64,000 bases of DNA, taken from NCBI RefSeq assembly GCF_030604785.1, contig NZ_JAUVVF010000011.1, positions 1 to 64,000 on the forward strand, given 5' to 3'. The notes under the pieces were generated by a model, which was not told where the DNA came from, searched no databases, and saw nothing but the letters and a program-made list of their open reading frames with translations. Position 1 is the first letter of the stretch. The number at the start of each line of letters is the position of its first letter. This stretch comes from Paracoccus sp. (in: a-proteobacteria) (lineage in GTDB: Bacteria; Pseudomonadota; Alphaproteobacteria; Rhodobacterales; Rhodobacteraceae). Below, piece after piece: positions 7,951-29,239 of this stretch. The position numbers and the translations under genes are program-made.

Positions 7951-8013
7951 GCGCGTTCCGGTTCCGTGAGAAGGGTCGGCGGCAGGGGCAGGGCGCCCCC
8001 GCCGCCAGAGGGC

Positions 8014-8964: not shown

Positions 8965-9061
8965 TCTCTCTCTCCCTTTGGGTTGGTGGTCTGCCCCTTG
9001 CGGGGGTCTTTCCGCGCGGCCCGCCCTCTTTCCGGGCCGTGCGGGGAAGGTCGGGGCGGCC

Positions 9062-10099
9062 TCAGCCCTTGCGGGGGCCGCCATATTGAAGCGAGTTCAT
9101 CAGCACGGCCAGCACGATCACGGCGCCGGTGAACACGGTCTGCCAGTAGGAACTGACCCCGATGATCACGAGGCCCGCCGACAGGAAGCCGATCACGAAG
9201 GCGCCCAGCATCGTGCCGCGCACCGTCCCGCGCCCGCCGGTCAGCGCCGCGCCGCCGATCACGACCGCCGCGATGGCGGTCAGCTCGTAGGTCATGCCCG
9301 CCGTGGGACCGGCCGAGGTCAGCTGCGACGCCAGCACCAGGCCCGCCACCGCCGACAGCATCCCCGAGACGACATAGACGGTGATCTTCACGCGCTTGAC
9401 CGGCACGCCCGACAATTCCGCCGCGCGTTCATTCCCGCCCGAGGCATAAAGCCAGCGCCCGAAGGCCGAGCGCGACAGCATCAGCCCCGCGACGATGGCG
9501 ATGCTGGCCAGCACGATCACGCTGATCGGAATGCCCCACAGCCGGTTGAAGCCCAGCCAGGCAAAGCCGGTATTGCCCAATTCCTCGCGGCCGCGCAGGT
9601 TGTTGTAGGTCAGCCCGTTCGTCATCAGCAGCGCGATCCCCCGCGCCACATACATCACGCCAAGCGTGGCGACGAAGGGCGGCACCTTGAAGATGGCGAC
9701 CAGCACGCCGTTTACCGCGCCCACCGCCGCGCCCACGCAGAGCGTCAGCACCACGACCGCCCAGACCGGCGGATAGAGGATCACGCCAAGCGCATCCAGT
9801 TCCACCCCCTGCATCATCGCGCCCGCCACGACGCCGGACAGCGCCAGGATCGATCCCACCGACAGGTCGATCCCGCCATTCAGGATCACCAGAAGCATGC
9901 CGATGGACAGGATGCCGAAGATCGCCACCTGGCTGGACATGATCAGGAAGTTCGCCACCGTGAAGTAATTGGGCGACAGCGACGAGAAAACCGCGATGAT
10001 CGCGATCAGCGCGAAGAAGGCGCGGCCCTCCAGCAGGATGCGGGTCAGGTTCAGCGAACGGCGCTTGGGCGAGGCGGGGTTGGTGGTTGATGCGGACAT
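9062..10099 (-). CDS. Ribose-type ABC transporter permease
   Basis: A 345-residue hydrophobic inner-membrane protein starting MSASTTNPAS, after an SD-like GAGGAAACC; the ORF track's extra 65 residues are out of character and overlap the ATPase gene. It shows the RbsC-family features: PNYFTVANFLIMSSQVAIFGILSIGM, NGGIDLSVGSILALSGV, GRWLYASGGNERAAELSGV and a C-terminal VIIGVSSYWQTVFTGAVIVLAV. It forms the membrane channel of the importer with the neighbouring ATPase and binding protein, and lies between them in the operon. Confidence 0.93.
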   Translation of the reverse strand: MSASTTNPASPKRRSLNLTRILLEGRAFFALIAIIAVFSSLSPNYFTVANFLIMSSQVAIFGILSIGMLLVILNGGIDLSVGSILALSGVVAGAMMQGVELDALGVILYPPVWAVVVLTLCVGAAVGAVNGVLVAIFKVPPFVATLGVMYVARGIALLMTNGLTYNNLRGREELGNTGFAWLGFNRLWGIPISVIVLASIAIVAGLMLSRSAFGRWLYASGGNERAAELSGVPVKRVKITVYVVSGMLSAVAGLVLASQLTSAGPTAGMTYELTAIAAVVIGGAALTGGRGTVRGTMLGAFVIGFLSAGLVIIGVSSYWQTVFTGAVIVLAVLMNSLQYGGPRKG

Positions 10100-10115
10100 G
10101 GTTTCCTCTTCGCGC

Positions 10116-11618
10116 TCAGGCGGCCACGGACTCGCCCGAGGCGGCCATGATCTTTTCCTTCGAGACGCTGCTGTCGAATTCGGCCGAGATGCGGCCCTTG
10201 TGCATGACGATGATCCGATGGGCGATGGACAGGCATTCGCTGACCTCGGATGTCGAATAGAGAACGGCCAGACCCTGCCGCGCGCCTTCGGCAAGCAGGC
10301 GGAAGACCTCGGCCTTGGCGCCGATGTCGATGCCGCGCGATGGCTCGTCCAGCATGATGACGCGGGGCTGCGTGGCCAGGATCTTGCCGATCACGACCTT
10401 CTGCTGGTTGCCCCCCGATAGCGAGCCGATGGCCGCTTCCCCGCCCGAGGTCTTGACCGTGACACGGCGGATGCTGTCCTCGATCAGGGCGCGTTCGGCG
10501 CGCGTGTCGGTGAAGAAGCCCCGCGTGAAGCGCGCGATCGAGGCCAGCGACAGGTTCTGGCCTACGCTCATTGTCTGGACCAGCCCATCGCGCTGGCGAT
10601 CCTCGGGGACCAGTGCAAGGCCCCGTGCGATGCGGTCCGCGATGGACAGATGGCTGACCTCTTGCCCGTCCAGCACGATCTGCCCGCCGCTGGCGCGCAA
10701 GCGTCCCGCGACGGTTTCCAGAAGCTCGGTCCGGCCCGCGCCCATCAGGCCGTAGATGCAGACGATCTCGCCCGCGCGGATGTCCAGATCGAGGCCGCGC
10801 ACCAGATCCTGCCCGGTCGCATCCGGCACGGACAGGCCCCGGATCGACAGGGCCACGTCGCCCGGCGTCGTCTTGGGCGGGCTGCCCAGATCGTAATTCT
10901 CGCCGACCATGTTGCGGACGATCCATTCCAGGTCGATCCGGTCGCGCGGCGCGCTGGCGGTCATCACGCCGTCGCGCAGGACGACGGCATGGTCGGTGAT
11001 GGTAAGCGCCTCTTCCAGATGGTGCGAGATATAGACGATGCTGACGCCGCGCGCCTTGAGGTCGCGGATCACCTTGAACAGCACCTCGACCTCGCTGGCC
11101 GACAGCGCGCTGGTCGGCTCGTCCATGATCAGGATGCGGCTGTCCACGGACAGGGCGCGGGCGATCTCGACGATCTGCTGCTGGCCAAGGCGCAGATCCT
11201 CGACCGGGGTCTGGGGGTCGATATCCTCTTCCAGCTCGGTCATCAGCAGGCGGACCTGCCGTTCCTCTTCGGCGTAGTCCACGCCGAAGGGGGTCATGAT
11301 CTCGCGGCCCATGAAGATGTTGTCGCGCACCGACAGATTGGGCGCGAGGCTCAGTTCCTGATGGATGATCGAGATGCCGCGCGCCTGCGCCTCGGCGGCA
11401 TTGGCGAACCGGGCGGGCTGGCCGTCCAGCACGATCTCGCCCGACGAGGGCTGGATGACGCCCGACAGGATCTTCATCAGCGTGGACTTGCCCGCGCCGT
11501 TTTCCCCGAAGAGCGTCGTCACCTCGCCCCGGCGGATGTCGAAATTCACGCCCTTGAGGGCATGGACCTGCCCGTAGGACTTGGCGACGTTGCGCGCGGC
11601 AAGGACGATGCCGGTCAT
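10116..11618 (-). CDS. Sugar ABC transporter ATP-binding protein (tandem domains)
   Basis: This 500-residue ATPase carries two ABC domains, as in RbsA/MglA/EryE. Domain 1 has Walker A GENGAGKSTLMKIL, signature LRLGQQQIVEIARAL and Walker B ILIMDEPTSAL. Domain 2 has a degenerate Walker A (GLMGAGRTELLE), signature GSLSGGNQQKVVIGK and Walker B VIMLDEPSRGID. Its ATG overlaps the stop of the DUF2291 gene (ATGA), so translation is coupled. It energises uptake through the adjacent permease. Confidence 0.95.
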   Translation of the reverse strand: MTGIVLAARNVAKSYGQVHALKGVNFDIRRGEVTTLFGENGAGKSTLMKILSGVIQPSSGEIVLDGQPARFANAAEAQARGISIIHQELSLAPNLSVRDNIFMGREIMTPFGVDYAEEERQVRLLMTELEEDIDPQTPVEDLRLGQQQIVEIARALSVDSRILIMDEPTSALSASEVEVLFKVIRDLKARGVSIVYISHHLEEALTITDHAVVLRDGVMTASAPRDRIDLEWIVRNMVGENYDLGSPPKTTPGDVALSIRGLSVPDATGQDLVRGLDLDIRAGEIVCIYGLMGAGRTELLETVAGRLRASGGQIVLDGQEVSHLSIADRIARGLALVPEDRQRDGLVQTMSVGQNLSLASIARFTRGFFTDTRAERALIEDSIRRVTVKTSGGEAAIGSLSGGNQQKVVIGKILATQPRVIMLDEPSRGIDIGAKAEVFRLLAEGARQGLAVLYSTSEVSECLSIAHRIIVMHKGRISAEFDSSVSKEKIMAASGESVAA

Positions 11619-12295
11619 TGGACCTCCAGCGCGACGGGGGTGATCATCCAGTTCGTCGGGTTGATCAGGCGGAAGGCGCCGGTCACGGTCAGGGTGCGGC
11701 CGGTCAGGTTGGCGGTGTCGATGGGCCCCAGAACCTCGGCGGCCATGGCGCGGTTGATGCCCGATCCGGCATCCTGAAACTCGATCTGGTTGCGGAAGGC
11801 ACCAAAGGCGATGTCGCCCGGCGCGTCGCGCAGGTCGGTGCCGTTGATCGCGGGGCCGGTCTGCACGCGGATCACCTGACCTTCGGGCATGCCCTCGACC
11901 TCCAGCGGGTAGACGCCCGCGCGGGGGGTGCCTGCCACGCCAGTGACGCTAACCATGAGGATCGCCCCGGTCGAGGCCGGTGTGCCGTATTCGGCGATGG
12001 CGGCCTGCTGGTCGGCGGCGATGGCGGCGTGCAGGACCTGCGCCTCGACCGCGCGGCTGATGACGAAGTCGCGGATGCGCGGGAATTCCTGCTGGCCATA
12101 GGCGTCGGGCGAAAAGGCCTGCTGGCGGACATCCGCATCCGAGCCGACATGAACGACGGTCGTGTCCAGCGCGATGGCCCCGAGGACCAGCACACCGGCG
12201 GCCAGAGACAGCCACAGGCCGCGCCGGGACGAGGGCGCCGCCTTGGGGGCCTCGGGGCGGGGCGTGGTCCGGGGGCTTTCGGCTTCTGCGCTCAT
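11615..12295 (-). CDS. DUF2291-family membrane-anchored protein of the importer operon
   Basis: A 226-residue protein from the ATG giving MSAEAESPRT; the upstream extension in the ORF track is not supported. One N-terminal transmembrane segment (LWLSLAAGVLVLGAIAL, about residues 27-43) is followed by an extracytoplasmic domain. The domain has FPRIRDFVISRAVEA, VYPLEVEGMP, VQTGPAINGTDLRDA, IEFQDAGSGINRAM and LTVTGAFRLINPTNWMITPVALEV, which matches DUF2291 as I know it. Such proteins travel with ribose-type ABC importers but their role is not established. It is the first gene of the leftward operon. A periplasmic accessory or sensor role is possible. Confidence 0.8.
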   Translation of the reverse strand: MSAEAESPRTTPRPEAPKAAPSSRRGLWLSLAAGVLVLGAIALDTTVVHVGSDADVRQQAFSPDAYGQQEFPRIRDFVISRAVEAQVLHAAIAADQQAAIAEYGTPASTGAILMVSVTGVAGTPRAGVYPLEVEGMPEGQVIRVQTGPAINGTDLRDAPGDIAFGAFRNQIEFQDAGSGINRAMAAEVLGPIDTANLTGRTLTVTGAFRLINPTNWMITPVALEVQ

Positions 12296-12654
12296 GGGCG
12301 GCCTCTCTGGTCCTGTGTTCTGCGGGAGGAGCGGGCGATTCGCGGCGCGTCCGTGCGGGCGGCAGCCCGGCCACCGCGAACGGGGGCCGCGTGCCTGATC
12401 GCGGCAAGGCGCTGGAAAAGCGGTGTATTCATGACCACGGCGCCGACCTCCCCTTCGGCTTCGCCGGTCTTGCCCCGTGCTGCCGGACCGCGACATCGCG
12501 TCGTCTGTTCCGGCGCCGGATTGCGGCGAACAGGATCAGCTTAGATGAAATATTTTGCGCTGTCCGTAAAAAAATTCGTTTATCAACCCGGATGCGTGCT
12601 ATATCGAACTAGGCGGCGGGCCGCCTTGCGGCGCCGCAAGCGAGGGGGAAGCAG
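12296..12654. promoter_or_regulatory. Divergent promoter region between importer operon and eryA
   Basis: This gene-free 359-bp spacer separates two divergent operons. The eryA-proximal part is strikingly AT-rich for this genome (GATGAAATATTTTGCG, then GTAAAAAAATTCGTTTATC and TATATCGAACT) and includes the 8-bp palindrome AAATATTT. It ends in a strong ribosome site, GAGGGGGAAGCAG, before the eryA ATG. EryD, the SorC-family regulator at the operon's end, is the natural candidate to bind here, but I cannot define its operator. The importer-proximal half shows nothing recognisable. Confidence 0.6.
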
Positions 12655-14262
12655 ATGGTCGAAGCGGGCGCCTTCAGCGGTGGTGCGCCAGGCGGGCGCG
12701 ATGTCCTGATCGGTGTCGATGCAGGCACCTCGGTGATCAAGGCCGTGGCCTTCGATCTGGCCGGGCATCAGCTTGGCGCGGCCGCAGTTCCGAACAGCTA
12801 CCGCAGCGGGGCCGACGGATCGGCGGTGCAGGACATGGCACGGACCTGGGCCGATTGCGCGGCCGCTCTGCGCGGTCTGGCCGATCATGTGCCGGGCCTC
12901 GCTGCGCGCACGGCGGCTTTGGCGGTGACGGGGCAGGGCGACGGGACGTGGCTTGTGGGCCGGGACGGGCCTGTCGGCGATGCCTGGCTGTGGCTGGACG
13001 CCCGCGCTGCGCCGACCGTGACGCAACTGGGTCAGGACCGCGCCCGGTTCGAGGCGACCGGGACCGGCCTGAACACCTGCCAGCAGGGCGCGCAGATGGC
13101 GCATATGGACGCCCACCACCCCGATCTGCTGGACCGGGCCGAGATCGCGCTGCATTGCAAGGACTGGCTTTACCTGAACCTGACCGGCGTCCGCGCGACC
13201 GATCCGTCGGAGGCCAGCTTCACCTTCGGCAATTTCCGCAGCCGCACCTATGACGACGCGGTGATCGCGGCCCTTGGCCTGACGCATCGCCGCGCCTTGC
13301 TGCCGCCGATCGTCGAGGGCACCGAGACCACCCATCCGCTGACAGCCGAGGCCGCCCGCGCCACCGGCCTTCTGGCGGGCACGCCTGTCTGTCTGGGCTA
13401 TGTGGACATGGTGATGACGGCGCTCGGCGCGGGCGTGCTGGGCGGCCATGATGAAAGCGGGCCGGGCGATGTCGCCTGTTCGACCATCGGCTCGACCGGG
13501 GTGCACCTGCGCGCTGTTCCGGCGGAGCGGGTGCATCTGAACGATCAGGGCACGGGCTATGTGATCTGCCTGCCTGTGCCGGGCATGGTCACGCAGGTCC
13601 AGACGAACATGGCGGCGACGCTGAACCTCGACTGGGTTCTGGGGTTGGCCGCGGGCCTGCTGTCCGAGATGAGCCATCCGGTCGGCCAGCGTGATCTGGT
13701 CGCGCGGCTGGACGGCTGGCTCGCGCAGGCCGCGCCGGGGCGGGTGCTTTATCATCCCTACATCTCCGAGGCGGGCGAGCGTGGCCCCTTCGTCGATGCC
13801 GATGCGCGGGCGGGTTTCACGGGCCTGTCGGCAGCGCATCGCTATCCCGATCTGGTCCGCGCCGTGGCCGAGGGGCTGGGCATGGCCATGCGCGATTGCT
13901 ACGCCGCGATGGGGCCGCTGCCGTCGGAGCTGCGCCTGACCGGGGGTGCTGCGCGCTCGCCGGGTCTGCGTGCGATCCTCTCGGCCTGCCTGAACGCGCC
14001 GCTGCGCGTCTCGGCCCGCGACGAGGCCGGGGCGGCGGGTGCCGCGATGATGGCCGCCGTCGCCGTCGGCGCCATGCCCGACATGCGGACCTGCATCGAC
14101 CGTTGGGTGACGCCGCTTCTGGGTGCCCCCGAGAGGCCCGACCCCGATCTGGCCGCGACCTATGCGCGGCTTTACCCCGCCTTTGCCGCGACCCGCGCCG
14201 CGATGCCGCCCGTCTGGGCCGCCTTGGCACGGTCGCGCCCGACGACAGGAGAAGCACGATGA
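12655..14262 (+). CDS. eryA: Erythritol kinase
   Basis: A 535-residue FGGY-family kinase that phosphorylates erythritol to D-erythritol 1-phosphate with ATP, the first step of the Brucella/rhizobial pathway. It shows VLIGVDAGTSVIKAVAFD at the N-terminal phosphate loop, ALAVTGQGDGTWLVG, HCKDWLYLNLTG, STIGSTGVHLRAVP and the C-terminal ELRLTGGAARSPGLRAIL. The strongest support is context: it directly precedes eryB, eryC and eryD in the order known from Brucella. The eryB start codon overlaps its stop. The first 15 or so residues are extra relative to most FGGY kinases, so a slightly later start is possible, though a good ribosome site supports this one. Confidence 0.9.
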   Translation: MVEAGAFSGGAPGGRDVLIGVDAGTSVIKAVAFDLAGHQLGAAAVPNSYRSGADGSAVQDMARTWADCAAALRGLADHVPGLAARTAALAVTGQGDGTWLVGRDGPVGDAWLWLDARAAPTVTQLGQDRARFEATGTGLNTCQQGAQMAHMDAHHPDLLDRAEIALHCKDWLYLNLTGVRATDPSEASFTFGNFRSRTYDDAVIAALGLTHRRALLPPIVEGTETTHPLTAEAARATGLLAGTPVCLGYVDMVMTALGAGVLGGHDESGPGDVACSTIGSTGVHLRAVPAERVHLNDQGTGYVICLPVPGMVTQVQTNMAATLNLDWVLGLAAGLLSEMSHPVGQRDLVARLDGWLAQAAPGRVLYHPYISEAGERGPFVDADARAGFTGLSAAHRYPDLVRAVAEGLGMAMRDCYAAMGPLPSELRLTGGAARSPGLRAILSACLNAPLRVSARDEAGAAGAAMMAAVAVGAMPDMRTCIDRWVTPLLGAPERPDPDLAATYARLYPAFAATRAAMPPVWAALARSRPTTGEAR

Positions 14263-15776
14263 CCCATGACCCCGAGATGATCGACCTGTTCGTGATCGGC
14301 GGCGGCATCAACGGCGCGGGCGTCGCCCGCGACGCGGCCGGGCGCGGCCTGTCGGTCGTGCTGTGCGAAAAGGACGATCTGGCGCAGGGCACCTCGTCGA
14401 GGTCGGGCAAGCTGGTTCATGGCGGGCTGCGTTATCTGGAATATTACGAATTCCGCTTGGTCCGCGAGGCGCTGATCGAACGCGAGGTGCTGCTGCGCGC
14501 CGCCCCGCACATCATCTGGCCGATGCGCTTCGTTCTGCCCCACAGCCCCGATGACCGGCCCGCCTGGCTGGTCCGGCTGGGGCTGTTTCTATACGACAAT
14601 CTCGGGGGCCGGCGAAAGCTGCCCGGCACGCGGGTGCTGGACCTGCGCCGCGACCCCGAGGGCGCGCCCCTTCTGGACAAGTATAACAAGGGGTTCGAAT
14701 ACAGCGATTGCTGGGTCGACGATGCGCGGCTCGTGGTGCTGAACGCGCTGGACGCGGCCGAACGCGGCGCGACGGTGCTGACCCGCAGCCCCTGCATCTC
14801 GGCCCGGCGCGAGGACGGGGCCTGGTCCGTCGCCACCCGCGACAGCCTGACCGGCGAGACGCGCCATTTCCGCGCCCGCTGCCTGGTCAATTGCGCCGGG
14901 CCCTGGGTCAGCGACGTGATCACGCGGGTCGCGGGCTCGAACTCGGCCCGCAATGTGCGGCTGGTGAAGGGCAGCCACATCATCGTCCCGAAATGGTGGG
15001 AGGGGCAGAACGCTTATCTCGTCCAGAACCACGACAAGCGGGTGATCTTCATCAATCCCTACGAGGGCGACATGGCGCTGATCGGCACGACCGACATCGC
15101 CTATGAGGGCAGGGCCGAGGACGTGACCGCCGACGAAGCCGAGATCGAGTATCTGCTGGCCGCCGTGAACCGCTATTTCAAGGAGAAGCTGCGGCGCGAG
15201 GATGTGATCCACGCCTTTTCGGGCGTGCGTCCGCTGTTCGATGACGGGCAGGGGAACCCCTCGGCCGTGACGCGGGACTATGTGTTCGACCTGGACCGCA
15301 ATGGCGGCGCGCCGATGTTGAACATCTTCGGCGGCAAGATCACCACCTTTCGCGAACTGGCTGAACGCGGGATGCACCGGCTGGCCGAGATCTTTCCGCA
15401 GATGGGCCCGGACTGGACCGAGACCGCGCCCCTGCCGGGCGGCGAGATCGCCAATGCCGATTACGAAAGCTTCGCCGCGCTGCTGCGCGAGCTGCATCCG
15501 TGGATGCCGCGCGGGCTGCTGCGCCATTACGGGCGGCTCTACGGGGCGCGGACGCGCGACGTGCTGGCGGGGGCGATGGGGCTTGCGGATCTGGGGCGGC
15601 ATTTCGGCGGCCAGCTTTACGAGGTCGAGGCGCGCTATCTTGTCGCCCGCGAATGGGCGCGCACACCCGAGGATATCCTGACCCGCCGCACCAAGCATTA
15701 CCTGCATCTGAGCGCCGCCGAGCAGGCCGCCTTCGCGGAATGGTTCAACGCCTCTGATCTGGCTCGCGCGGCCTGA
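14259..15776 (+). CDS. eryB: D-erythritol 1-phosphate dehydrogenase (GlpD-like flavoprotein)
   Basis: The 505-residue protein starts MTHDPEMIDL and overlaps eryA by 4 bp; the 626-residue ORF is an unsupported extension through eryA. It is an FAD enzyme with FVIGGGINGAGVARDAAGRG, the GlpD-type SSRSGKLVHGGLRYLEYYEFRL, a second FAD contact LVNCAGPWVSDV, and IFGGKITTFRELAERG. It oxidises D-erythritol 1-phosphate to D-erythrulose 1-phosphate and would pass electrons to the quinone pool from the inner face of the membrane. Length and operon position match Brucella EryB. Glycerol 3-phosphate dehydrogenase is the alternative by homology, but context favours EryB. Confidence 0.92.
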   Translation: MTHDPEMIDLFVIGGGINGAGVARDAAGRGLSVVLCEKDDLAQGTSSRSGKLVHGGLRYLEYYEFRLVREALIEREVLLRAAPHIIWPMRFVLPHSPDDRPAWLVRLGLFLYDNLGGRRKLPGTRVLDLRRDPEGAPLLDKYNKGFEYSDCWVDDARLVVLNALDAAERGATVLTRSPCISARREDGAWSVATRDSLTGETRHFRARCLVNCAGPWVSDVITRVAGSNSARNVRLVKGSHIIVPKWWEGQNAYLVQNHDKRVIFINPYEGDMALIGTTDIAYEGRAEDVTADEAEIEYLLAAVNRYFKEKLRREDVIHAFSGVRPLFDDGQGNPSAVTRDYVFDLDRNGGAPMLNIFGGKITTFRELAERGMHRLAEIFPQMGPDWTETAPLPGGEIANADYESFAALLRELHPWMPRGLLRHYGRLYGARTRDVLAGAMGLADLGRHFGGQLYEVEARYLVAREWARTPEDILTRRTKHYLHLSAAEQAAFAEWFNASDLARAA

Positions 15777-15786
15777 AGGAACGACG

Positions 15787-16716
15787 ATGCTGACGCTTTC
15801 GCTGAACACCAACCCTCTGGTCAACCGCATCGCTGATCCCGATGATCTGATCGACACGGTCGCGCGCGACATCCGCATCCGCGACCTGCAACTGACGCAT
15901 GAATTCATCAATCCCTCTTGGCCCGCGCCTCTGATCCGCCGCCTGACCCGGCAGATGCGCGCCGCGCTGGACCGGACGGGGGTGCGCGTGACCAGCGGGA
16001 TGACCGGGCCTTACGGGCGGCTCAATCATTTCGGCCATCCCGATGCCGAGGTGCGGCGCTACTATATCGACTGGTTCAAGACCTTCGCCGACATCACCGC
16101 CGAACTGGGCGGGCGGTCGGTGGGCACGCAATTCGCGATCTTCACCTGGCGCGATTACGATGATCCGGCCCGCCGCGAGGCGTTGATCGATGTCGCGCTG
16201 GAGTGCTGGGCCGAGGTCGCGGACCATGCCCGCGCCGCCGGGCTGGATTACCTCTTCTGGGAGCCGATGAGCATCGGGCGCGAATTCGGCGAGACGATTC
16301 CCGCCGCGATGGCATTGCAGGACCGGATTGCGGCGGCGGGCATGGCCATCCCGATGTGGATGATGGCCGATATCGATCATGGCGACGTGACCAGCGCTGA
16401 CCCGGCCGATTACGACCCCTATGCCTGGGCGCGCGCCGTGCCGCGCGTCAGTCCGATCATCCATATCAAGCAATCGCTGATGGACAAGGGCGGGCACCGG
16501 CCCTTTACTTCCGAATTCAACGCCTTGGGCCGCATTCACCCCGAGCCGCTGCTGGCCGCCCTGGCCGCGGGCGGCGCCGCCGACAACGAGATCTGCCTGG
16601 AGCTCAGCTTCAAGGAGCGCGAGCCCAACGATCGGCAGGTCATCGCGCAGATCGCCGAAAGCGTGGCCTTCTGGGCGCCCCATATCGACACCGGCGCCGA
16701 TAAGCTGAATATCTAG
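15787..16716 (+). CDS. eryC: Erythrulose 1-phosphate 3-epimerase (TIM-barrel)
   Basis: A 309-residue sugar-phosphate isomerase/epimerase-like TIM barrel. In the published Brucella pathway EryC inverts D-erythrulose 1-phosphate to L-erythrulose 1-phosphate. Readable landmarks are TLSLNTNPLVNRIADPDDLI, GMTGPYGRLNHFGHPD, FWEPMSIGREFGET, MWMMADIDHGD, IHIKQSLMDKGGHRPF and CLELSFKEREPND. The Glu, Asp, His and Glu in these motifs fit a divalent-metal site of the xylose-isomerase-like fold. It follows eryB after 10 bp with a GGAACGACG leader. The assignment rests on both sequence feel and operon position. Confidence 0.88.
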   Translation: MLTLSLNTNPLVNRIADPDDLIDTVARDIRIRDLQLTHEFINPSWPAPLIRRLTRQMRAALDRTGVRVTSGMTGPYGRLNHFGHPDAEVRRYYIDWFKTFADITAELGGRSVGTQFAIFTWRDYDDPARREALIDVALECWAEVADHARAAGLDYLFWEPMSIGREFGETIPAAMALQDRIAAAGMAIPMWMMADIDHGDVTSADPADYDPYAWARAVPRVSPIIHIKQSLMDKGGHRPFTSEFNALGRIHPEPLLAALAAGGAADNEICLELSFKEREPNDRQVIAQIAESVAFWAPHIDTGADKLNI

Positions 16717-16742
16717 CGGATTGTCACAGCAGGAATTCGATC

Positions 16743-17891
16743 ATGCCCAGCCCGTTCGCCTTTGCCACAGCCACGGAGATCCTGTTCGGCCGCGGCCAGG
16801 TGGCGGGTGCCGCCGCCCGTGTGGCCCCGATGGGACGGGTGGTGCTGCTGGTGCAGGGATCGACGGGCGCGCGCGCCGACGGGCTGGCCCGGGCGCTTGA
16901 GGAACAGGGCTGTTCGCTGATCCGGCTGTCCGTGGGGCGTGAGCCCGATCTGCCGATGATCGAGGACGCGCTGCGGCTTGGGCGGGGGGCCGAGGTTGTC
17001 GTGGCCATGGGCGGCGGCGCGGTCATCGATGCGGGCAAGGCTCTGGCGGCCTGCCTGACCATGACGCGGCCGCTGATGGATCATCTGGAAGTCGTCGGCC
17101 AAGGGCTGCCGCTGGATCACGCGCCCTTGCCCTTTGTCGCGATCCCGACCACCGCGGGGACCGGCGCCGAGGTGACGCGCAATGCTGTGATCGGCGTGCC
17201 CGAGGCGCGGCGCAAGGTCAGCCTGCGCGACGCGCGGATGCTGCCCCGTCTGGCCATCGTGGATCCGGCCCTGACGGATGGCTGCCCGCGCGGCGTGACG
17301 CTGGCTTCGGGTCTGGATGCGATCACGCAGGTGATCGAGCCCTATCTCAGCACGCGGGCCAATGCGATGACCGATGCCTTGTGCCGCGATGCGATCCCGC
17401 AGGGGCTGGCGGCGCTGATGCGGCTGATGAAGGCCGAGGACATGGCGGCCCGCGACCGCATGGCCTGGGTCAGCCTGTGCGGCGGGCTGGCGCTGGCCAA
17501 TTCGGGGCTGGGGGTCGTGCATGGGCTGGCGGGCCCCCTGGGTGGGCTGACCGGGGCGGCGCATGGCGCGATCTGCGGCGCGCTTCTGCCCCATGGGCTG
17601 GTCGCGAACCGGGCGGCTGTGAACAACCCGGCCTTGGCCGCGCGAATGGACGAGGTGGCGGGCTGGATCGGCGCGGCCTTCGGCGAACCCGGCGCGGATA
17701 TGGACCGGGCTGCGGGCCTGCTGGCGGGCTGGTCGCGGTCCTGCGGCCTGCTCGGCCTTTCCGCGCTTGGCATCGATGCGCAGTCGCGGGCGCAGGCGGC
17801 CGAGGCGGCGGCGGCCTCGTCCTCGATGAAGGCCAATCCGGCGGTGCTGGATCCCGAGGCCTTGCGCACCCTGATGGAGGCTGCGGGCTGA
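16743..17891 (+). CDS. Iron-containing alcohol dehydrogenase family protein
   Basis: A 382-residue group III (Fe-type) alcohol dehydrogenase. Features: FGRGQVAGAAARVAPMGRVVLLV, the NAD-site motif VVAMGGGAVIDAGKALAA, PFVAIPTTAGTGAEVTRNAVI, ASGLDAITQVIEPYLS and VVHGLAGPLGG...AHGAICGALLPHG, which contain the expected Asp and His metal ligands. It sits between eryC and eryD, and its stop codon overlaps the eryD ATG (TGATG), so it belongs to the ery operon. It is not part of the classical eryABCD set as I know it. It could oxidise a free polyol or reduce an aldehyde or keto intermediate such as erythrulose or erythrose; the substrate is unknown. Confidence 0.9.
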   Translation: MPSPFAFATATEILFGRGQVAGAAARVAPMGRVVLLVQGSTGARADGLARALEEQGCSLIRLSVGREPDLPMIEDALRLGRGAEVVVAMGGGAVIDAGKALAACLTMTRPLMDHLEVVGQGLPLDHAPLPFVAIPTTAGTGAEVTRNAVIGVPEARRKVSLRDARMLPRLAIVDPALTDGCPRGVTLASGLDAITQVIEPYLSTRANAMTDALCRDAIPQGLAALMRLMKAEDMAARDRMAWVSLCGGLALANSGLGVVHGLAGPLGGLTGAAHGAICGALLPHGLVANRAAVNNPALAARMDEVAGWIGAAFGEPGADMDRAAGLLAGWSRSCGLLGLSALGIDAQSRAQAAEAAAASSSMKANPAVLDPEALRTLMEAAG

Positions 17892-18841
17892 TGGCGCGGC
17901 GCGGTCCGGTGGACCCCGAGCAGAGCTTGGCGATCCGCGCGGCCTGGCTGCATTATGCGGGCGGCCTGACCCAAGCGGCGGTGGCCAAGCGGCTGGGCCT
18001 GCCGGGCGTCAAGGCGCATCGCCTGATCGCCCGGGCGGTGGCCGAGGGCGTGGTCAAGGTCTCGATCGATGGCGAGATCGTCGAATGCGCCATTCTTGAA
18101 GACCGGCTTTGCGCGCGTTTCGGGCTGGATCATTGCGAGGTCGCCCCCGATCTGGGCGAGGAGGACATTCCGCTGCGCGCCCTCGGGCTGGCCGGCGCGG
18201 GCTTTCTGCGCCGCGAGATCGAACGGGGCGAGCATCAGGTGATCGGGCTGGGCCATGGCCGCACGATGGCGGCGGCGGTCCAGAACCTGCCGCGCTTCGA
18301 TGCGGGGCGGGTGCGGTTCGTCTCGGTCCTGGGCGGGCTCACGCGGAATTACGCGGCCAACCCGCATGACGTGATGCACAGCCTTGCGGAAAAGACCGGC
18401 GCGCAGGCGTATGTCCTGCCGGTGCCGTTCTTCGCCAACAGCGAAAGCGACCGGGCGATCCTGCTGGCCCAGCCCGGCGTGCGCGAGATCTTCGATCTGT
18501 CCAACAGCGCCACGCTGAAGCTGGTGGGAATGGGATCGGCGGATGCGGGCGCGCAGCTTGTCGCCTCGGGGATGATCGAGCGCCATGAGATCGACGAGAT
18601 CAACGCCGCCGGCGCGGTGGGCGAGATGATGGGGCATTTCTTCGATGCCGAGGGCCGGGTCCTGACCACGACGCTGAGCATGCGGACGCTGTCGGTCGAT
18701 CTGGACCGCCCGCAGGGCCACCGGATCGTCGTGATCGCGGGCGGCGCGCAGAAGATCGCCGCGATCCGAGCCGTGCTGAACAGCGGCCATCTGTCGGGCC
18801 TGATCACCGACGAGACGACGGCCCGCAGCCTGCTGTCCTGA
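17891..18841 (+). CDS. eryD: SorC/DeoR-family sugar-binding regulator, erythritol repressor
   Basis: The protein is 316 residues from the ATG giving MARRGPVDPE; the 486-residue ORF reads out of frame through the upstream gene. An N-terminal helix-turn-helix (GLTQAAVAKRLGLPGVKAHRLIARAVAEG) precedes a sugar-phosphate-binding domain of the SorC type (IGLGHGRTMAAAVQNLP, VSVLGGLTRN, VLPVPFFANSESDRAILLAQPGV, GMGSADAG, VVIAGGAQKIAAIRAVL). EryD in Brucella represses eryABCD and is relieved by erythritol. Here it is the last gene of the same operon, coupled to the dehydrogenase by a 1-nt overlap, so it would regulate its own expression. Confidence 0.92.
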   Translation: MARRGPVDPEQSLAIRAAWLHYAGGLTQAAVAKRLGLPGVKAHRLIARAVAEGVVKVSIDGEIVECAILEDRLCARFGLDHCEVAPDLGEEDIPLRALGLAGAGFLRREIERGEHQVIGLGHGRTMAAAVQNLPRFDAGRVRFVSVLGGLTRNYAANPHDVMHSLAEKTGAQAYVLPVPFFANSESDRAILLAQPGVREIFDLSNSATLKLVGMGSADAGAQLVASGMIERHEIDEINAAGAVGEMMGHFFDAEGRVLTTTLSMRTLSVDLDRPQGHRIVVIAGGAQKIAAIRAVLNSGHLSGLITDETTARSLLS

Positions 18842-18869
18842 CCATCTCCCGGCTGCCCGCATCGGGGGA

Positions 18870-18892
18870 CGGGCCGGGCAAAGCCCGGCCCG
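18870..18892 (+). terminator. Strong hairpin after eryD, possible terminator
   Basis: A perfect 10-bp inverted repeat, CGGGCCGGGC / GCCCGGCCCG, with an AAA loop lies 28 bp after eryD. It has no U-tract, so it is not a textbook intrinsic terminator. It may assist Rho-dependent ending or protect the transcript 3' end. Confidence 0.45.
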
Positions 18893-18953
18893 GACGCTGC
18901 CGCTTGGCCTCGCGCCGCGCTGCGCGCGGCTGTTGTAACACGAAATCGTCACA

Positions 18954-18971
18954 GAATCACATGATTCATGT
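18954..18971. promoter_or_regulatory. Overlapping palindromes, candidate operator upstream of deoR-type gene
   Basis: Two interlocked perfect palindromes share the sequence GAATCACATGATTCATGT: GAATCA-CA-TGATTC and ACATGA-T-TCATGT. They lie in an unusually AT-rich spacer about 50 bp ahead of the regulator gene. TGTAACAC and GTGTTATG flank them as a further wider inverted pair. A dimeric regulator, either the adjacent DeoR-type protein or EryD, is a plausible binder. Confidence 0.5.
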
Positions 18972-19021
18972 TTCAAGCGGCGATCATTGTGTTATGAGCG
19001 GCGGCAAAGGGGGCGCCGGCG

Positions 19022-19819
19022 ATGAAGCGGGACGAGAGACGACAGGCGATCATGGATCTGCTGGTGGCCGACCGCGCCGTCGATCTGGACGCGCTGGCGA
19101 CGCGGTTCGACGTCAGCCGCATGACCATCCACCGTGATCTGGACGACCTGGCGCAGGCGGGGCTGCTGCGCAAGGTGCGCGGCGGCGCCACGATCGAGGC
19201 GGGCACCCAGTTCGAAAGCGATTTCCGCATCCGCGAATTGCAGGATGGCGAGGCCAAGGGCCGGATGGCCGAGGCCGCCATGGCGCTGGTCGAGCCGGGC
19301 ATGACGGTGATGGTCAATGACGGCTCGATGGCGGCGCTGCTTGGGGCGCGCCTGGGCGGGCTTGCGCCGCTGACCGTCATCACCAACAACGCCGCCGTGA
19401 TCGAACGGCTGAAGGACGCGCCCGGCGTCACGCTGATCGCGCTTGGCGGCACCTACAGCGCCAAGTTCAACGGCTTCTTCGGGATGGTCACGGAAAACGC
19501 GCTGGCGGGCCTGCGCGCCGATCTGGCCTTTGTTTCGACCCCGGCCGTGGCGGGGCTTCAGGCCTTTCATATGGACGGGGACGCGGTGCGCACCAAGCGC
19601 GCCATGATGCGGGCGGCAGGGACCAGCGTGCTGCTGGTGAACCATCGCCGCTTCGGGCGGAGCGCGCTGCATCTGCTGGCCGACCTGGCGGATTTCGACG
19701 CGATCATCACGGATGCGGCGCCCGTGCCCGACCATCTGGCGGCGCTGGAACGCGGTGGAATCGCGCTGATTGTCGCCGAGGACGCCACGAGTTCACAGAA
19801 CAGGGGAGGAAAGCGATGA
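19022..19819 (+). CDS. DeoR/GlpR-family transcriptional regulator
   Basis: A 265-residue repressor with the classic N-terminal DeoR helix-turn-helix (RRQAIMDLLVADRAVDLDALATRFDVSRMTIHRDLDDL, then LLRKVRGGA) and a DeoRC sugar-phosphate sensor domain (VMVNDGSMAALLGARL, TVITNNAAVIERL, LIALGGTYSAKFNGFFG, TSVLLVNHRRFGRSALHLLADL, ITDAAPVPDHLAALE). It is the first gene of the second ery operon, and its end overlaps eryH by 4 bp. In Brucella, as I recall, a DeoR gene likewise precedes the tpiA2 and rpiB homologues. It probably answers to a phosphorylated tetrose or triose and controls its own operon. Confidence 0.92.
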   Translation: MKRDERRQAIMDLLVADRAVDLDALATRFDVSRMTIHRDLDDLAQAGLLRKVRGGATIEAGTQFESDFRIRELQDGEAKGRMAEAAMALVEPGMTVMVNDGSMAALLGARLGGLAPLTVITNNAAVIERLKDAPGVTLIALGGTYSAKFNGFFGMVTENALAGLRADLAFVSTPAVAGLQAFHMDGDAVRTKRAMMRAAGTSVLLVNHRRFGRSALHLLADLADFDAIITDAAPVPDHLAALERGGIALIVAEDATSSQNRGGKR

Positions 19820-20577
19820 CCACATTCTGGATCGGCACCAGCTGGAAGATGAACAAGAGCTTGCCCGAGGCGCTGGCCTTTGCAGAGGGGCTGCGCGCGG
19901 CGGCGCCCTTGCCCGGCATCCAGCGCTTCGTCGTGCCGCCCTTCACCGCCTGCCGCCAGGTCAAGGCGGCGCTGGCAGGCACCGACGTAAAGGTCGGCGC
20001 GCAGAACATGCACTGGCAGGACGAGGGCGCCTGGACGGGCGAGATCAGCGCGCCGATGCTGGTCGATTGCGGCCTCGACCTGGTCGAGCTGGGCCATAGC
20101 GAGCGCCGCGCCCATTTCGGCGAGACCGACGAGACGGTCGGCCTCAAGACGGCAGCCGCCGTGCGGCATGGGCTGATCCCGCTGATCTGCATTGGCGAGA
20201 CCCTGGCCGAACGCGAGGCGGGCCGCGCGGCCGAGGTTCTCGCGGCGCAGGTCCGCGCCGCGCTGGACCCCGTGGCGGGGGCCGAGGCGACGATCCTTCT
20301 GGCCTATGAACCCGTCTGGGCCATCGGCGCGGGGGGCATCCCCGCCACGGCCGATTACGCCGATGCAAGGCAGGCCGAGATCGCTGCCGTCGCGCGCGAG
20401 GTCATGGGGCGGCACATCCCGTGCCTCTATGGCGGGTCGGTCAATCCGGGCAATTGCGCGGAACTCATCGCCTGCCCGCATGTGGACGGGCTGTTCATCG
20501 GACGCTCTGCCTGGGACGTGGCGGGCTATCTGGACATTCTGGCGCGCTGCGCCGCAACCATGGGAGAGACGGCATGA
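19816..20577 (+). CDS. eryH: L-erythrulose 1-phosphate isomerase (TpiA2-like)
   Basis: A 253-residue triosephosphate-isomerase homologue. It keeps the TIM catalytic set: TSWKMNKS (Lys about 11), [11 protein letters not shown] (His 94), [13 protein letters not shown] (Glu 166) and YGGSVNPGN. The opening TSWKMNK, rather than NWKMNG, separates it from the housekeeping TpiA at 1177..1923 and is typical of the EryH group as I know it. In Brucella, EryH converts L-erythrulose 1-phosphate to D-erythrulose 4-phosphate. Overlap with the deoR gene before it and with eryI after it makes a tightly coupled unit. Confidence 0.9.
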
Positions 20578-21035
20578 AACTGGCCATTGCAGGGGACAGC
20601 GCGGGCGAGGGGCTGGCAAAGGTGCTGGCCGATCATCTGAAGGACCGCTTCGACGTGTCCGAGATCAGCCGCACGGATGAGGGGCCGGACGCATTCTATG
20701 CCGATCTGTCGGACCGCGTCGCCTCGGGCGTGATGAACGGCACCTTTGACCGCGCTATCCTGGTCTGCGGCACCGGGATCGGGGTCTGCATCGCGGCGAA
20801 CAAGGTGCCGGGCATCCGCGCGGCGCTGACCCACGACACCTATTCCGCGACCCGCGCGGCGCTGTCCAACAACGCGCAGATCATCACGATGGGAGCCCGG
20901 GTGATCGGGCCGGAACTGGCCAAGGCCATCGCCGATGCCTGGCTGGCCGAGACGCTGAATTTCGACGCTTCGGGCAAATCCGCAGGCAATGTCGCCGCCA
21001 TCGACGCGGTCGATGCTAGATACAACAAGGCCTGA
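20574..21035 (+). CDS. eryI: D-erythrulose 4-phosphate isomerase (RpiB-like)
   Basis: A 153-residue RpiB/LacAB-family sugar-phosphate isomerase from the ATG giving [13 protein letters not shown]. The catalytic segment [27 protein letters not shown] includes the conserved Cys and substrate loop, followed by [20 protein letters not shown]. In Brucella, EryI turns D-erythrulose 4-phosphate into D-erythrose 4-phosphate, completing the pathway. It overlaps eryH by 4 bp and the fbp-like gene by 1 bp. Ribose 5-phosphate isomerase B activity is the alternative, but the erythritol operon context argues for EryI. Confidence 0.91.
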
Positions 21036-22006
21036 TGCTGCGACTTCCCATCGACGGGGCCGCGACCGGCCCCCGCCTGTCCGAGGCGCTGGAGGGCGCC
21101 CCTGCAGGCCCCGTCATCGCGGCCATCGCCGGCGGGGTGCCGCCCCTTGCCGCGCGGCTGGCGGCGGGGCGCCTGCATGGAGACCCCGAAACCGTGGTCG
21201 GCACGAATGACAGCGGCGACCGGCAAAAGGCGCTGGATCTGGCCGCCCATCACCACATGCTTGCGGCCCTGCGCAAGGCGGGCGTGCGCCGCGTCCTGTC
21301 CGAAGAGGCCGAGGCCGTCATCCCCCTGAACGAGGGCGGCGAATTCGATGTGGCGATCGACCCGATCGACGGCTCGGGCAGCATCGGGATCGGCGCACCC
21401 TTGGGCCTGCTGTTCAGCGTCCTGCCATCGGCGCCGGACAGCTTCCTGCGGCCGGGCCGGACGGCGGTGGCGGCAGGCTATGCCTCCTTTGGCCATTCGG
21501 TCGATTTCGGCTTTTCGACCGGGCAGGGCGTGCATGTCGCAACGCTGGAGCCGGGCGGTGATTTCCGCATCGCGCATGAGGGGCTGCGCCTGAAGTCACA
21601 GGCCTCGACCATCGCCTACAATGCCTCGAACGAGCGGCACTGGGCGCCCGGCTTGCGCGACTGGGCGGCCGATCTGCGCGCAGGCGCCGACGGGCCGCGC
21701 GGGCGGGACTTCAACATGCGCTGGCTGGCCGCAGCCGTTGGCGAATTGCACCGCATCCTGCTGAAGGGGGGCGTGTTCCTTTACCCTGACGATGCGCGGC
21801 CCGGCTATGGCCGGGGACGACTGCGCCTGATCTACGAGGCCGCACCCATCGCCTTTCTGATCGAACAGGCGGGCGGGCAGGCGACCGACGGGCGCCGACC
21901 GATCTTGGATCTGGCAGCCGACAGCCTGCACCAGATGACGCCCCTGATCTTTGGCGCCGCCGACGAGGTGGCGACGATCCACACCTATCTTGCCCGCAAA
22001 GGATGA
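21035..22006 (+). CDS. fbp: Fructose-1,6-bisphosphatase class I (possibly also sedoheptulose-bisphosphatase)
   Basis: A 323-residue class I FBPase-fold enzyme. Metal- and phosphate-binding motifs are present: GTNDSGDRQKALDLAAHHHM, RVLSEEAEAV and FDVAIDPIDGSGSIGIGAPLG (family consensus DPxDGSS). NMRWLAAAVGELHRIL and GGVFLYPDDARPGYGRGRLRLIYEAAPIAFLIEQAGG form the substrate side. It starts within the eryI stop (TGATG) and is followed by an aldolase, so it belongs to the tetritol operon. It may support gluconeogenesis on erythritol. If it also accepts sedoheptulose 1,7-bisphosphate, it would finish an aldolase-based route for erythrose 4-phosphate. Confidence 0.9.
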   Translation: MLRLPIDGAATGPRLSEALEGAPAGPVIAAIAGGVPPLAARLAAGRLHGDPETVVGTNDSGDRQKALDLAAHHHMLAALRKAGVRRVLSEEAEAVIPLNEGGEFDVAIDPIDGSGSIGIGAPLGLLFSVLPSAPDSFLRPGRTAVAAGYASFGHSVDFGFSTGQGVHVATLEPGGDFRIAHEGLRLKSQASTIAYNASNERHWAPGLRDWAADLRAGADGPRGRDFNMRWLAAAVGELHRILLKGGVFLYPDDARPGYGRGRLRLIYEAAPIAFLIEQAGGQATDGRRPILDLAADSLHQMTPLIFGAADEVATIHTYLARKG

Positions 22007-22012
22007 CGCCTG

Positions 22013-23047
22013 ATGGCCATGATCACCCTCCGCCAGCTTCTGGACCATGCCGCCGAGCATGGCTATGCCGTGCCGGCCTTCAACATCAACAACATGGAAC
22101 AGGGCCTGTCGGTCATGCAGGCCGCCGCCGCCACCGACAGCCCGGTGATCCTGCAGGCCAGCCGGGGCGCGCGCGCCTATGCCAATGACGCGGTTCTGGC
22201 GGGGCTGATCACGGGGCTCGCCCGCGCCTTTCCCGACATTCCGCTCTGCATGCATCTGGACCACGGCAACGGTCTGGCGACCTGCGCCACTGCGATCCAG
22301 AACGGGTTCACATCGGTGATGATGGATGGGTCGCTGAAAGCAGACGGCAAGACACCCGCCGATTACGCCTACAACGCCGACATCACCCGCCGCGTGACCC
22401 AGATGGCCCATGCCTGCGGCGTCTCGGTCGAGGGCGAGCTGGGCGTGCTGGGCAGCCTGGAAACCGGCATGGGCGATCAGGAGGACGGCCACGGCGCGAC
22501 CGAAAAACTGTCCGAGGATCAGCTGCTGACCGACCCGGACGAGGCCGTGCGCTTCGTCGAGGAGACCGGAGTCGATGCGCTGGCCATCGCGATGGGGACC
22601 AGCCACGGCGCCTACAAGTTCACGCGCAAGCCCGATGGCGACATTCTGGCCATGCATGTGATCGAGGAAATCCACCGCCGGCTGCCGAACACGCATCTGG
22701 TCATGCACGGGTCATCCTCGGTCCCCGAGGACCTGCAACAGATCATCAACGATCATGGTGGCGACATCCGCCCCACCTGGGGCGTCCCGGTCGAGGAGAT
22801 TCAGCGCGGCATCCGCCACGGCGTGCGCAAGGTGAATATTGACACGGACAACCGGCTGGCGATGACGGCTGCGATCCGCAAGGTCTTTGCCGAACGTCCC
22901 GAGGAATTCGATCCGCGCGCCTATCTGAAACCCGCCATGGCCGCCATGTCGGATATCTGCCGCGCCCGGTTCGAGGCCTTCGGCACGGCGGGCCATGCCA
23001 GCCGCATCAAGCCGCTGCCGCTGTCCGCGATGGCCGCGCGCTACTGA
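22013..23047 (+). CDS. fba: Class II fructose-bisphosphate aldolase, Calvin-cycle subtype
   Basis: A 344-residue zinc aldolase that splits or forms fructose 1,6-bisphosphate; many enzymes of this subtype also join dihydroxyacetone phosphate to erythrose 4-phosphate. Readable motifs are [94 protein letters not shown] and [14 protein letters not shown], covering the zinc histidines and phosphate loops. It ends the deoR-eryHI-fbp-fba operon. Convergent gene 23066..24238 follows after a hairpin. Confidence 0.95.
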
Positions 23048-26869: not shown

Positions 26870-27925
26870 TCAGAGCGGCGCGTCTCCAGGCGCTGCCGCC
26901 GCGGGAGGCATGTCGTCGATCGTTGCGCAGCCGCGCCCGGCGTCTTTAGCGCGGTAAAGCGCCCGGTCCGCCGCCGCCAGGATCGTCTCTGCATCATGGC
27001 CCCAGCTTCCGTCGCAGATCACGATGCCGAGGCTTGCGCCGACCGTCAGGGGCGCGATTCCGGCTGGGCTGCGGGCGCGGATGGCCTCGATGATGCGAGA
27101 GGCCATGCGCTCAAGCTGGTCGCGGCAGGTCATGTCGCGCAGGATCACGACGAATTCGTCACCGCCCAGCCGCGCCGCCGTGTCGGCCTGTCGGATGGTC
27201 TGGCGCAGCGCCGACGCGATCTCGGCCAGCAATTCGTCGCCCGCCTGATGGCCCAGCCGGTCGTTCACCGGTTTGAAATGGTCAAGGTCCAGCTGCACCA
27301 GCGCGAAGGGGCGCGGCGCCTCCGACGGGCCGGGCCGCAGCAGCGCGGCCAGTGCCAGCGTCAGCCCCCGCCGGTTCAGAAGCCCCGTCAGCGGGTCGCT
27401 ATGCGCCTCGGACAGGGCCATCCGGCGGGCGGTTTCCAGATGGGCGCTGAAGCGCGACAATTCCGACAGCACGCCGCGATTGGCCTCGTGCAGGAACAGG
27501 AACTCCATCACAAGATCCGTCGGCGGAAAGTCGGCATCCGTCAGATCGCAGGCCGCGATCGCGCGGCGCAGCGACAGGCCGAAGCCCAGATTGAGCAGGA
27601 TCGTCCCGTCCAGCGCTCCCACCGCATGGCCGCGCAACACGATGCCGGGATCGTGGACGAGGCCCAGAAACAGCCGCCGCCCCTCGGAGGCGGCCATATG
27701 CGCGGCCTCGACCACGTCCCGGCCGTCATGGGCGCGCAGCGGCGCGAGCCTGCCCCTGATCCCGTCAGCAAGTCCGGGAACGATCTTGAGCAGCGTCTGC
27801 CCCGCCGATAGCACCTGCCCCGCATGGTCGAGACGCAGATGCATCGGCAGGATGCGCGACAGCGCCGCAGGCGACAGGGTCAGACCGCCCGCAGGCGCGG
27901 CGACAGCGGAGGGGGTGCCGATCAT
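26870..27925 (-). CDS. HNOBA-GGDEF diguanylate cyclase
   Basis: From the ATG giving MIGTPSAVAA the protein has 351 residues; that ATG overlaps the stop of the H-NOX-like gene, and the 498-residue ORF is an unsupported extension. Residues about 17-165 match the H-NOX-associated (HNOBA) domain: ALSRILPMHLRLDHAGQVL, LKIVPGL, LRGHAVGALDGTILLNLGFGLS, DLTDADFPPTDLVMEFLFLHEANRG. A helical linker leads into a GGDEF domain with DPLTGLLNRRG, LDLDHFKPVNDRLGHQAGDELL and an intact ARLGGDEFVVI. The RQAD five residues before GGDEF fits an inhibitory I-site. It should make cyclic di-GMP under control of its partner. Confidence 0.9.
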   Translation of the reverse strand: MIGTPSAVAAPAGGLTLSPAALSRILPMHLRLDHAGQVLSAGQTLLKIVPGLADGIRGRLAPLRAHDGRDVVEAAHMAASEGRRLFLGLVHDPGIVLRGHAVGALDGTILLNLGFGLSLRRAIAACDLTDADFPPTDLVMEFLFLHEANRGVLSELSRFSAHLETARRMALSEAHSDPLTGLLNRRGLTLALAALLRPGPSEAPRPFALVQLDLDHFKPVNDRLGHQAGDELLAEIASALRQTIRQADTAARLGGDEFVVILRDMTCRDQLERMASRIIEAIRARSPAGIAPLTVGASLGIVICDGSWGHDAETILAAADRALYRAKDAGRGCATIDDMPPAAAAPGDAPL

Positions 27926-28491
27926 GCCCGTTCCCCTTGGGCCGCCACTTCGGAACTGAGGCGGAAATTGCGCCCTTCGGCAAAGCGCTCTTCCCAGATC
28001 TCGACCCGGATGTCTGGACCCTCGGCATCGATCAGGCACAGCGCCCCGTAATCGTCGGCCATGCCGCGCAGCAGGCCGATCAGCACCGGCTGCCAGTCGC
28101 GATCCTCGGCCCGGACCGTGATGACGATGGCGCCGTGCCTGCGCGTGATGACCAGATCCGGCACGGCGAGATGGGGCAGGACCAGATGCGCCCGGCCCGG
28201 CAATTCCTCGAGCCCCAGAAGAAAGTCGCGGAAATCGCGGCCCGAAAAGCGCAAGAGCCTGCGGATCGGCTCGAGGCGCGTCAGCCACGCGCCTATATCC
28301 TCGAACATCTCGGCCTGCGACTTGGCCATCTGCGCCGCGACCAGCGCCAGAGCCTGCCTGCCGCATCCCTGCAGATCGTCCCGCGGCAACCCCTCCCGCA
28401 GGGCCAGCTCGTCCGCGAGCACCCGCACGAGGTCGTCGCCATAGGTCATGCGCAGGAATTCCTCGATCGTGCGGTCAACCAGCCTGTTCAT
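27922..28491 (-). CDS. H-NOX-like sensor domain protein lacking the heme histidine
   Basis: This 189-residue single-domain protein starts MNRLVDRTIEEFL, with AGAGG five bases ahead of the ATG; the ORF track's GTG start lies inside that ribosome site. Fold landmarks match H-NOX: LVDRTIEEFLRMTYGDD, LALVAAQMAKSQAEMFEDIGAWL, and LLGLEELPGRAHLVLPHL. Aligned to the proximal segment of guanylate cyclase (LDALHDHLATIYPGM), the heme-ligating His is Pro98; a His occurs four residues later (H102). The YxSxR heme-propionate motif is also absent (VRAED at that place). It overlaps the HNOBA-GGDEF gene by 4 bp, the standard partner of H-NOX. It may sense something other than NO, or use another ligand. Confidence 0.8.
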   Translation of the reverse strand: MNRLVDRTIEEFLRMTYGDDLVRVLADELALREGLPRDDLQGCGRQALALVAAQMAKSQAEMFEDIGAWLTRLEPIRRLLRFSGRDFRDFLLGLEELPGRAHLVLPHLAVPDLVITRRHGAIVITVRAEDRDWQPVLIGLLRGMADDYGALCLIDAEGPDIRVEIWEERFAEGRNFRLSSEVAAQGERA

Positions 28492-28705
28492 ATGCACCTC
28501 TTTCCCGGGCGATCATAGCCCACAGAGGTAAAGAACCGGTAAGCGGCGCTGCGGATGCGGCGGATTCCCATGGGCGGCCAAAACCGAGGCCGGGTCAATC
28601 GGCCGCGCCCCCTGGCGGCGATTGGCGCTTGATCGGCGGGACGTCCGGCGCAACGCTTCACCAGGTGCCGCCGGGCTTGCGCGGCGTTTGCAGGAGGGTG
28701 CTGGA

Positions 28706-29239
28706 ATGGCCGCAGCCAAGGCGCGCAAGGGCGCCCGGATCGTTGATCGCCCTGAATATGCCAGCAAGTTCGGCCCCTTGACCGGCCGCGCCGACAGCAC
28801 CGTGTCCGAGGCGGTCGCCGCGATGAAGGCGCGCAATTACGGCTGCATCGTGATCACCGATGCCGAGGACCGCGTCGAGGGGATCGTGACCGAGCGCGAC
28901 ATCATGTTCAAGCTGGTCGCGCATAACCTTGACCCGGACAGGGTGCGCCTGTCCGAGATAATGACCCGCGAGATCCGCACGGCGAAGGAAACCGACAACG
29001 TACTGGACTGGCTGCGGATCATGTCGAACGAACGGTTCCGCCGCCTGCCGGTCGTGGACGAGCAGGGGCGGCTGCAGGCGCTGCTGACACAGGGCGATTT
29101 CGTCAGCTACACATGGCCCGACCTGTTCTATCAGGCGGGCGGGCTGGCCAAGGCCACGATCCTCGGTCAGCTGCATCTGGTGGTGATCGGGTTTCTCGCC
29201 TTCGTGCTGGCGCTGGTCGCGCTGCTGACGCTTGGTTGA
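28706..29239 (+). CDS. Paired CBS-domain protein with C-terminal membrane anchor
   Basis: A 177-residue protein from the ATG giving MAAAKARKGA, preceded by CAGGAGGG; the ORF's earlier start is less likely. Two CBS motifs form one Bateman module: STVSEAVAAMKARNYGCIVITDAEDRVEGIVTERDIMFKLV and RTAKETDNVLDWLRIMSNERFRRLPVVDEQGRLQALLTQGDFV. Such modules usually bind adenine nucleotides. The last 22 or so residues (LHLVVIGFLAFVLALVALLTLG) form one hydrophobic helix ending the protein, so it is tail-anchored with the CBS module in the cytoplasm. The client is unknown. It is divergent from the H-NOX-like gene. Confidence 0.87.
   Translation: MAAAKARKGARIVDRPEYASKFGPLTGRADSTVSEAVAAMKARNYGCIVITDAEDRVEGIVTERDIMFKLVAHNLDPDRVRLSEIMTREIRTAKETDNVLDWLRIMSNERFRRLPVVDEQGRLQALLTQGDFVSYTWPDLFYQAGGLAKATILGQLHLVVIGFLAFVLALVALLTLG

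Follow-up and report, generated by a model that had tools for sequence, protein, structure and literature searches.

In the window, i.e. the whole stretch of 64,000 nucleotides of Paracoccus DNA analyzed here, the minus strand carries an hnoX orthologue (27922..28491) encoding an H-NOX-like protein of 189 amino acids which lacks the proximal His and the YxSxR motif. Directly downstream lies a gene (26870..27925, minus strand) for a DgcA-type diguanylate cyclase of 351 amino acids, composed of an HNOBA/PAS-like domain, a helix and a GGDEF domain. The H-NOX-like protein belongs to the H-NOX type named Group 5. We consider it probable, at roughly 60%, that the window protein is a pseudo-H-NOX which serves the adjoining HNOBA-GGDEF cyclase as a regulatory subunit and works without heme, or at least without heme ligated by His.

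Pairs of this type have been described already and occur almost throughout the bacterial family, and the window pair is a further, rather divergent Group 5 member. H-NOX proteins without the axial His were reported from P. denitrificans and R. sphaeroides by Kumar & Spiro 2017 (PMC5588039). Lee-Lopez & Yukl 2022 described Group 5 as a fifth large cluster in which less than 10% of the members have the proximal His and most carry Pro, in which hinge Gly residues but no Cys are conserved and which has a GGDEF gene as neighbour; they also raised the question how these proteins sense anything (PMC8738867). Of these features, a proximal Pro, no conserved Cys and an adjacent GGDEF gene were found for the window protein and its clade. 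A first, sequence-only reading of this DNA had implied that the loss of the heme residues was new. This is not supported, since the loss is on record both for the P. denitrificans and R. sphaeroides proteins (PMC5588039) and for Group 5 as a cluster (PMC8738867).

The frame of hnoX is exact, with an ATG at 28491 and the stop codon at 27924..27922 on the minus strand, and a plausible ribosome-binding site (agagg) is located 5 nt 5' of the ATG. The divergent neighbour of hnoX (28622-29239, plus strand) encodes, as judged by eye, a protein with two CBS domains and a C-terminal hydrophobic segment. Scanned directly against the Pfam family PF07700 (HNOB), the 189-aa protein reached 25.9 bits with a cut-off of 25.5; 60 of the 61 scanned clade members matched this family, with a best E-value of 1e-29. 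A six-frame search of the window's own genome with PF07700 at E<=0.001 found no H-NOX, which reflects a limit of sensitivity because the same protein passes the direct scan. The AlphaFold2 model of the protein (mean pLDDT 89.6, pTM 0.83) contains a helix of residues 94-104 which bears Pro98, and its best 46 structural matches in the PDB were all H-NOX or sGC chains, with TM-scores up to 0.72. The protein is a member of the H-NOX fold family and is divergent, its nearest relatives being about 52-58% identical. The H-NOX-type fold proposed in the sequence-only reading is therefore confirmed by the Pfam score and the model as well as by a profile match to the Nostoc protein.

This profile was built from 61 clade members and matched the Nostoc H-NOX Alr2278 with E=8.4e-23. 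The proximal helix was aligned without gaps, the clade sequence 'Lee-lpgRarl' lying on Nostoc 'Ldn-lhaRvgl' with the consensus Pro over the Nostoc His, and no trace of YxSxR was present in the clade. A single-sequence search against solved structures gave weak matches only (E near 1), in which Pro98 (codon ccg, 28198..28200, minus strand) fell on His105 of sGC beta1, the heme-ligating position that it also occupies in the Nostoc numbering, and VRAED (residues 126-130; 28102..28116, minus strand) fell on YYSERE. As both alignments agree, Pro98 corresponds to the proximal His; V126, A128 and D130 correspond to Y, S and R of the heme-propionate motif YxSxR. Compared with a canonical sensor, the window protein thus has neither the His (Pro98) nor YxSxR (VRAED). 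The sequence-only reading had arrived at the same two replacements from an alignment by eye, for which an error of register is now rejected. Of the checks which it had proposed, the structure model bears Pro98 on the proximal helix, and the collected homologues mostly have Pro at this site.

An HNOB match was found in 223 of 298 genomes sampled from the same bacterial family. Alignment of 140 proteins from the family search and a genus search resulted in two clades. With 80 named loci added, almost all from Rhodobacteraceae/Paracoccaceae and many from Paracoccus, although P. denitrificans was not recognised among the loci, the clade of the window protein comprised 191 members, or 179 once near-duplicates were removed. 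In the canonical clade of this family the proximal His and YxSxR were each present in 28 of 29 proteins; in the clade of the window protein YxSxR is gone, and so is the proximal His in most members. The proximal residue of the 179 non-redundant members was Pro in 125, His in 18, Gln in 15, Arg in 8, Lys and Ala in 3 each, Gly and Ser in 2 each and Asn, Glu and Thr in one each. Pro98 is the rule in its clade and not the oddity of a single protein. Two hnoX copies looked broken, one being split into two matches (genome G328) and the other carrying one in-frame TAG (L049 of genome G335).

Turnover of the proximal site was computed on a FastTree tree of all 191 members, the deep branches of which are weak. 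The site underwent at least 39 residue changes (column median 48, rank 66 of 160). Switches between His and non-His numbered at least 14, compared with a mean of 21 and a minimum of 17 for shuffled labels. Small groups of members thus partly share His by descent, yet it often turns over, and the site is not kept in the manner of a ligand; it changes at roughly the average column rate, without ligand-type constraint. The proximal codons were mostly CCN, CAY, CAR and CGN, which are single-base neighbours. As a tentative extension, a gas-sensor domain may have been converted throughout the clade to a regulator that is free of heme and answers to a new ligand or signal, while its proximal residue drifts among the codon neighbours Pro, His, Gln and Arg. 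Members with His, Dinoroseobacter shibae included, would then result from drift or regain and would not be relics of heme sensing.

The stop codon of hnoX and the start codon of dgcA overlap by 4 nt (ATGA, 27922..27925, minus strand), and translational coupling of both genes is likely. Such an overlap was present in 76 of the 113 loci with a partner. Within the cyclase, all on the minus strand, we located the HNOBA/PAS-like domain (residues 19-126; 27548..27871) by the PF07701 matches of relatives, the model and the matches to sGC, a long signalling helix between HNOBA and GGDEF (residues 139-174; 27404..27511) by the secondary structure of the model, and the GGDEF domain (26930..27406) by Pfam. 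The RxxD inhibitory site (R245-D248; 27182..27193) ends five residues N-terminal of the GGDEF active-site motif (residues 254-258; 27152..27166) in the arrangement RQAD-TAARL-GGDEF, and both motifs are intact, as had been read before. The HNOBA label of the earlier reading fared less evenly. Pfam assigned GGDEF to the window partner but did not reach HNOBA (PF07701), whereas 15 of 22 scanned partner proteins matched this family (best 4e-8). In the model of the window partner (pLDDT 91.3) a PAS-like domain is followed by a long helix and by GGDEF. Its fold search listed sGC chains among the matches, with PAS-coiled-coil stretches over 334-352 columns.

Of 111 clade members, 110 had a GGDEF gene immediately downstream, whereas only 3 of 29 canonical genes did. 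The GGDEF motif was intact in all 110 clade partners and the RxxD I-site in 109 of them. On the canonical side, the H-NOX genes L001, L008 and L025 adjoin a GGDEF gene, and the partner of L001 resembles the HNOBA-GGDEF type.

In the 108 clade members compared, D65, G67, R81, F90, P111, G139 and D146 were invariant and G84 and G149 nearly so. The dN/dS ratio ranged from 0.03 to 0.25 in close clade pairs, and the hnoX genes of the clade are under purifying selection. The divergence of the window protein, with 25.9 bits to Pfam HNOB and best relatives only ~52-58% identical, might point to a pair that is degenerating and has no function. With dN/dS well below 1, intact frames, a partner that is almost always present and has an intact GGDEF and I-site, and a knock-out phenotype in P. 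denitrificans (PMC5588039), this is highly improbable. A pseudogene was rejected on the same grounds of purifying selection and conserved pairing with an intact cyclase, so that the earlier remark that the pair is not simply decaying stands.

The protein might still bind heme and sense NO via another axial ligand, such as His102, another side chain or solvent. The H-NOX fold is retained, and His102 (codon cat, 28186..28188, minus strand), which the sequence-only reading had suggested as a substitute, is located at i+4 on the helix of Pro98. However, at this position 122 of the 191 clade members have Arg and only 29 have His, by which His102 is rejected as a conserved substitute ligand, and the propionate motif is lost. 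Residue 2 could be read in 165 clade members, of which 134 have His (N-terminus MHGLINR); it may serve as a distal-side ligand elsewhere in the clade, but is Asn in the window protein. Among the aligned columns of the clade no other one exceeded 40% His, and none exceeded 30% Cys. That the H-NOX of D. shibae is counted among the NO sensors with heme (PMC8846402) speaks against the favoured reading. A five-coordinate heme with a non-His or solvent ligand keeps some plausibility, but for the reasons given we regard heme binding and NO sensing via another axial ligand as rather unlikely. Regarding residue 2, Nostoc H-NOX and sGC carry Tyr there, and it is a possible pocket residue of the Group 5 clade. 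The alternatives left by the sequence-only reading are thereby weighted: His102 is disfavoured, and the heme-independent regulator is favoured by inference.

Instead of a gas, the vacated pocket might sense labile heme or some other ligand that is bulky or hydrophobic. In favour of this, the fold, Arg81 and Arg100 are conserved in the clade, and the loss of the fixed ligand may have turned a cofactor site into an exchangeable one. We consider this quite unlikely.

Canonical NO activation of H-NOX and sGC involves rupture of the Fe-His bond. With Pro at a variable ligand site this mechanism cannot run in its usual form, and a canonical NO mechanism is not expected since the propionate motif is gone throughout the clade and the proximal site is Pro and free to change. 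As a regulatory subunit, the H-NOX-like protein would be co-produced with the downstream HNOBA-GGDEF cyclase and would most likely bind it. Docked on the cyclase it would set the cyclic-di-GMP output, probably by repression as proposed for P. denitrificans, and its input may be a ligand bound where heme used to sit, protein partners or the expression level. We favour the regulatory subunit because of the mutant phenotypes of P. denitrificans, the conserved overlap and the HNOBA domain. In that species an hnoX mutant under-produces biofilm and a double dgc mutant over-produces it, which the authors read as inhibition of DgcA by H-NOX (PMC5588039). A point against our reading is that NO, as modelled, acts on the biofilm partly via an H-NOX-linked route (PMC5588039). 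Cyclic di-GMP in P. denitrificans could later not be quantified (PMC12582929). Heme independence is what we infer, rather than observe, because work on sGC cautions that an absent His by itself is no proof of absent heme (PMC8196705).

The supply of NO was considered at the level of the genus. H-NOX was present in 57 of 61 genomes of the window's genus, 35 of which carried NirS or NirK, and 22, including the window's genome, carried neither. These numbers were tallied from tables with NirS counted over 400 bits and NirK over the cut-off, and gaps in drafts could conceal some nitrite reductases. In the window's genome (98.5% complete) no NirK was found, and a weak match to the NirS family was rejected, as it is by eye a YVTN-type beta-propeller. 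Given the 22 genomes without NirS or NirK, NO from endogenous denitrification cannot be the sole input. The genome encodes two GGDEF and two EAL proteins. Elsewhere in the window, 4811-23047 appears by eye to be a polyol (erythritol-like) catabolism island with two FGGY-type kinases, a sugar ABC transporter, two FAD oxidoreductases resembling glycerol-3-phosphate dehydrogenase, SorC-like and DeoR-like regulators, TIM, a GlpX-type FBPase and a class II aldolase.

In the bacterial family of the window's host, Group 5 predominates among the H-NOX types. To the published description our census adds that the proximal site is without ligand-type constraint, and that the only clade member with reported NO binding, that of D. 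shibae, is among the few which keep the His. NO sensing by the Pro-bearing members is an assumption in the P. denitrificans literature.

The P. denitrificans H-NOX-DgcA system (Pden_3719-Pden_3720) resembles the window pair in that it stems from the same genus and has overlapping hnoX and dgc genes and an HNOBA-GGDEF-like partner; like most Group 5 members, which have Pro, it has no proximal His, and it has no conserved Cys (PMC8738867, PMC5588039). The reported numbers of GGDEF and EAL proteins are also equal in both genomes. It differs in that the window protein is divergent (~52-58% to its nearest relatives) and its genome is without recognisable NirS or NirK.

The D. shibae H-NOX-Dgc1 pair (Dshi_2815/2814) shares the clade and the operon with the window pair. 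According to reviews its H-NOX is a heme NO sensor, the NO-bound form of which inhibits Dgc1 (PMC8846402, PMC7232146). One sampled genome (G035) contained a 190,506-bp plasmid identical to D. shibae NC_009955 over the 6 kb tested, and its clade member (L111), identified as that of D. shibae via this plasmid, keeps the proximal His (DLHDRARLAV). The NO data of D. shibae therefore do not carry over to members with Pro. A genome with a plasmid matching Cereibacter sphaeroides 2.4.1 carried a member with Pro (L113), in agreement with the published remark.

With the canonical H-NOX proteins of Nostoc (Alr2278), Shewanella and Thermoanaerobacter/Caldanaerobacter the window protein shares the fold and the order of helices, but these carry the heme-ligating His and YxSxR. 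The pseudo-H-NOX domain of sGC alpha, a heme-free H-NOX fold in a cyclase assembly with an HNOBA/PAS domain, which is without the His in human and without YxSxR in the moth (PMC8196705), appears to be the nearest functional analogue. In sGC alpha, however, an N-terminal extension blocks the pocket, whereas the window protein has no extension, the clade profile meeting Alr2278 from residue 1. Unlike the window protein, the sGC alpha domain is moreover fused to its cyclase, and its partner is a beta subunit that bears heme.
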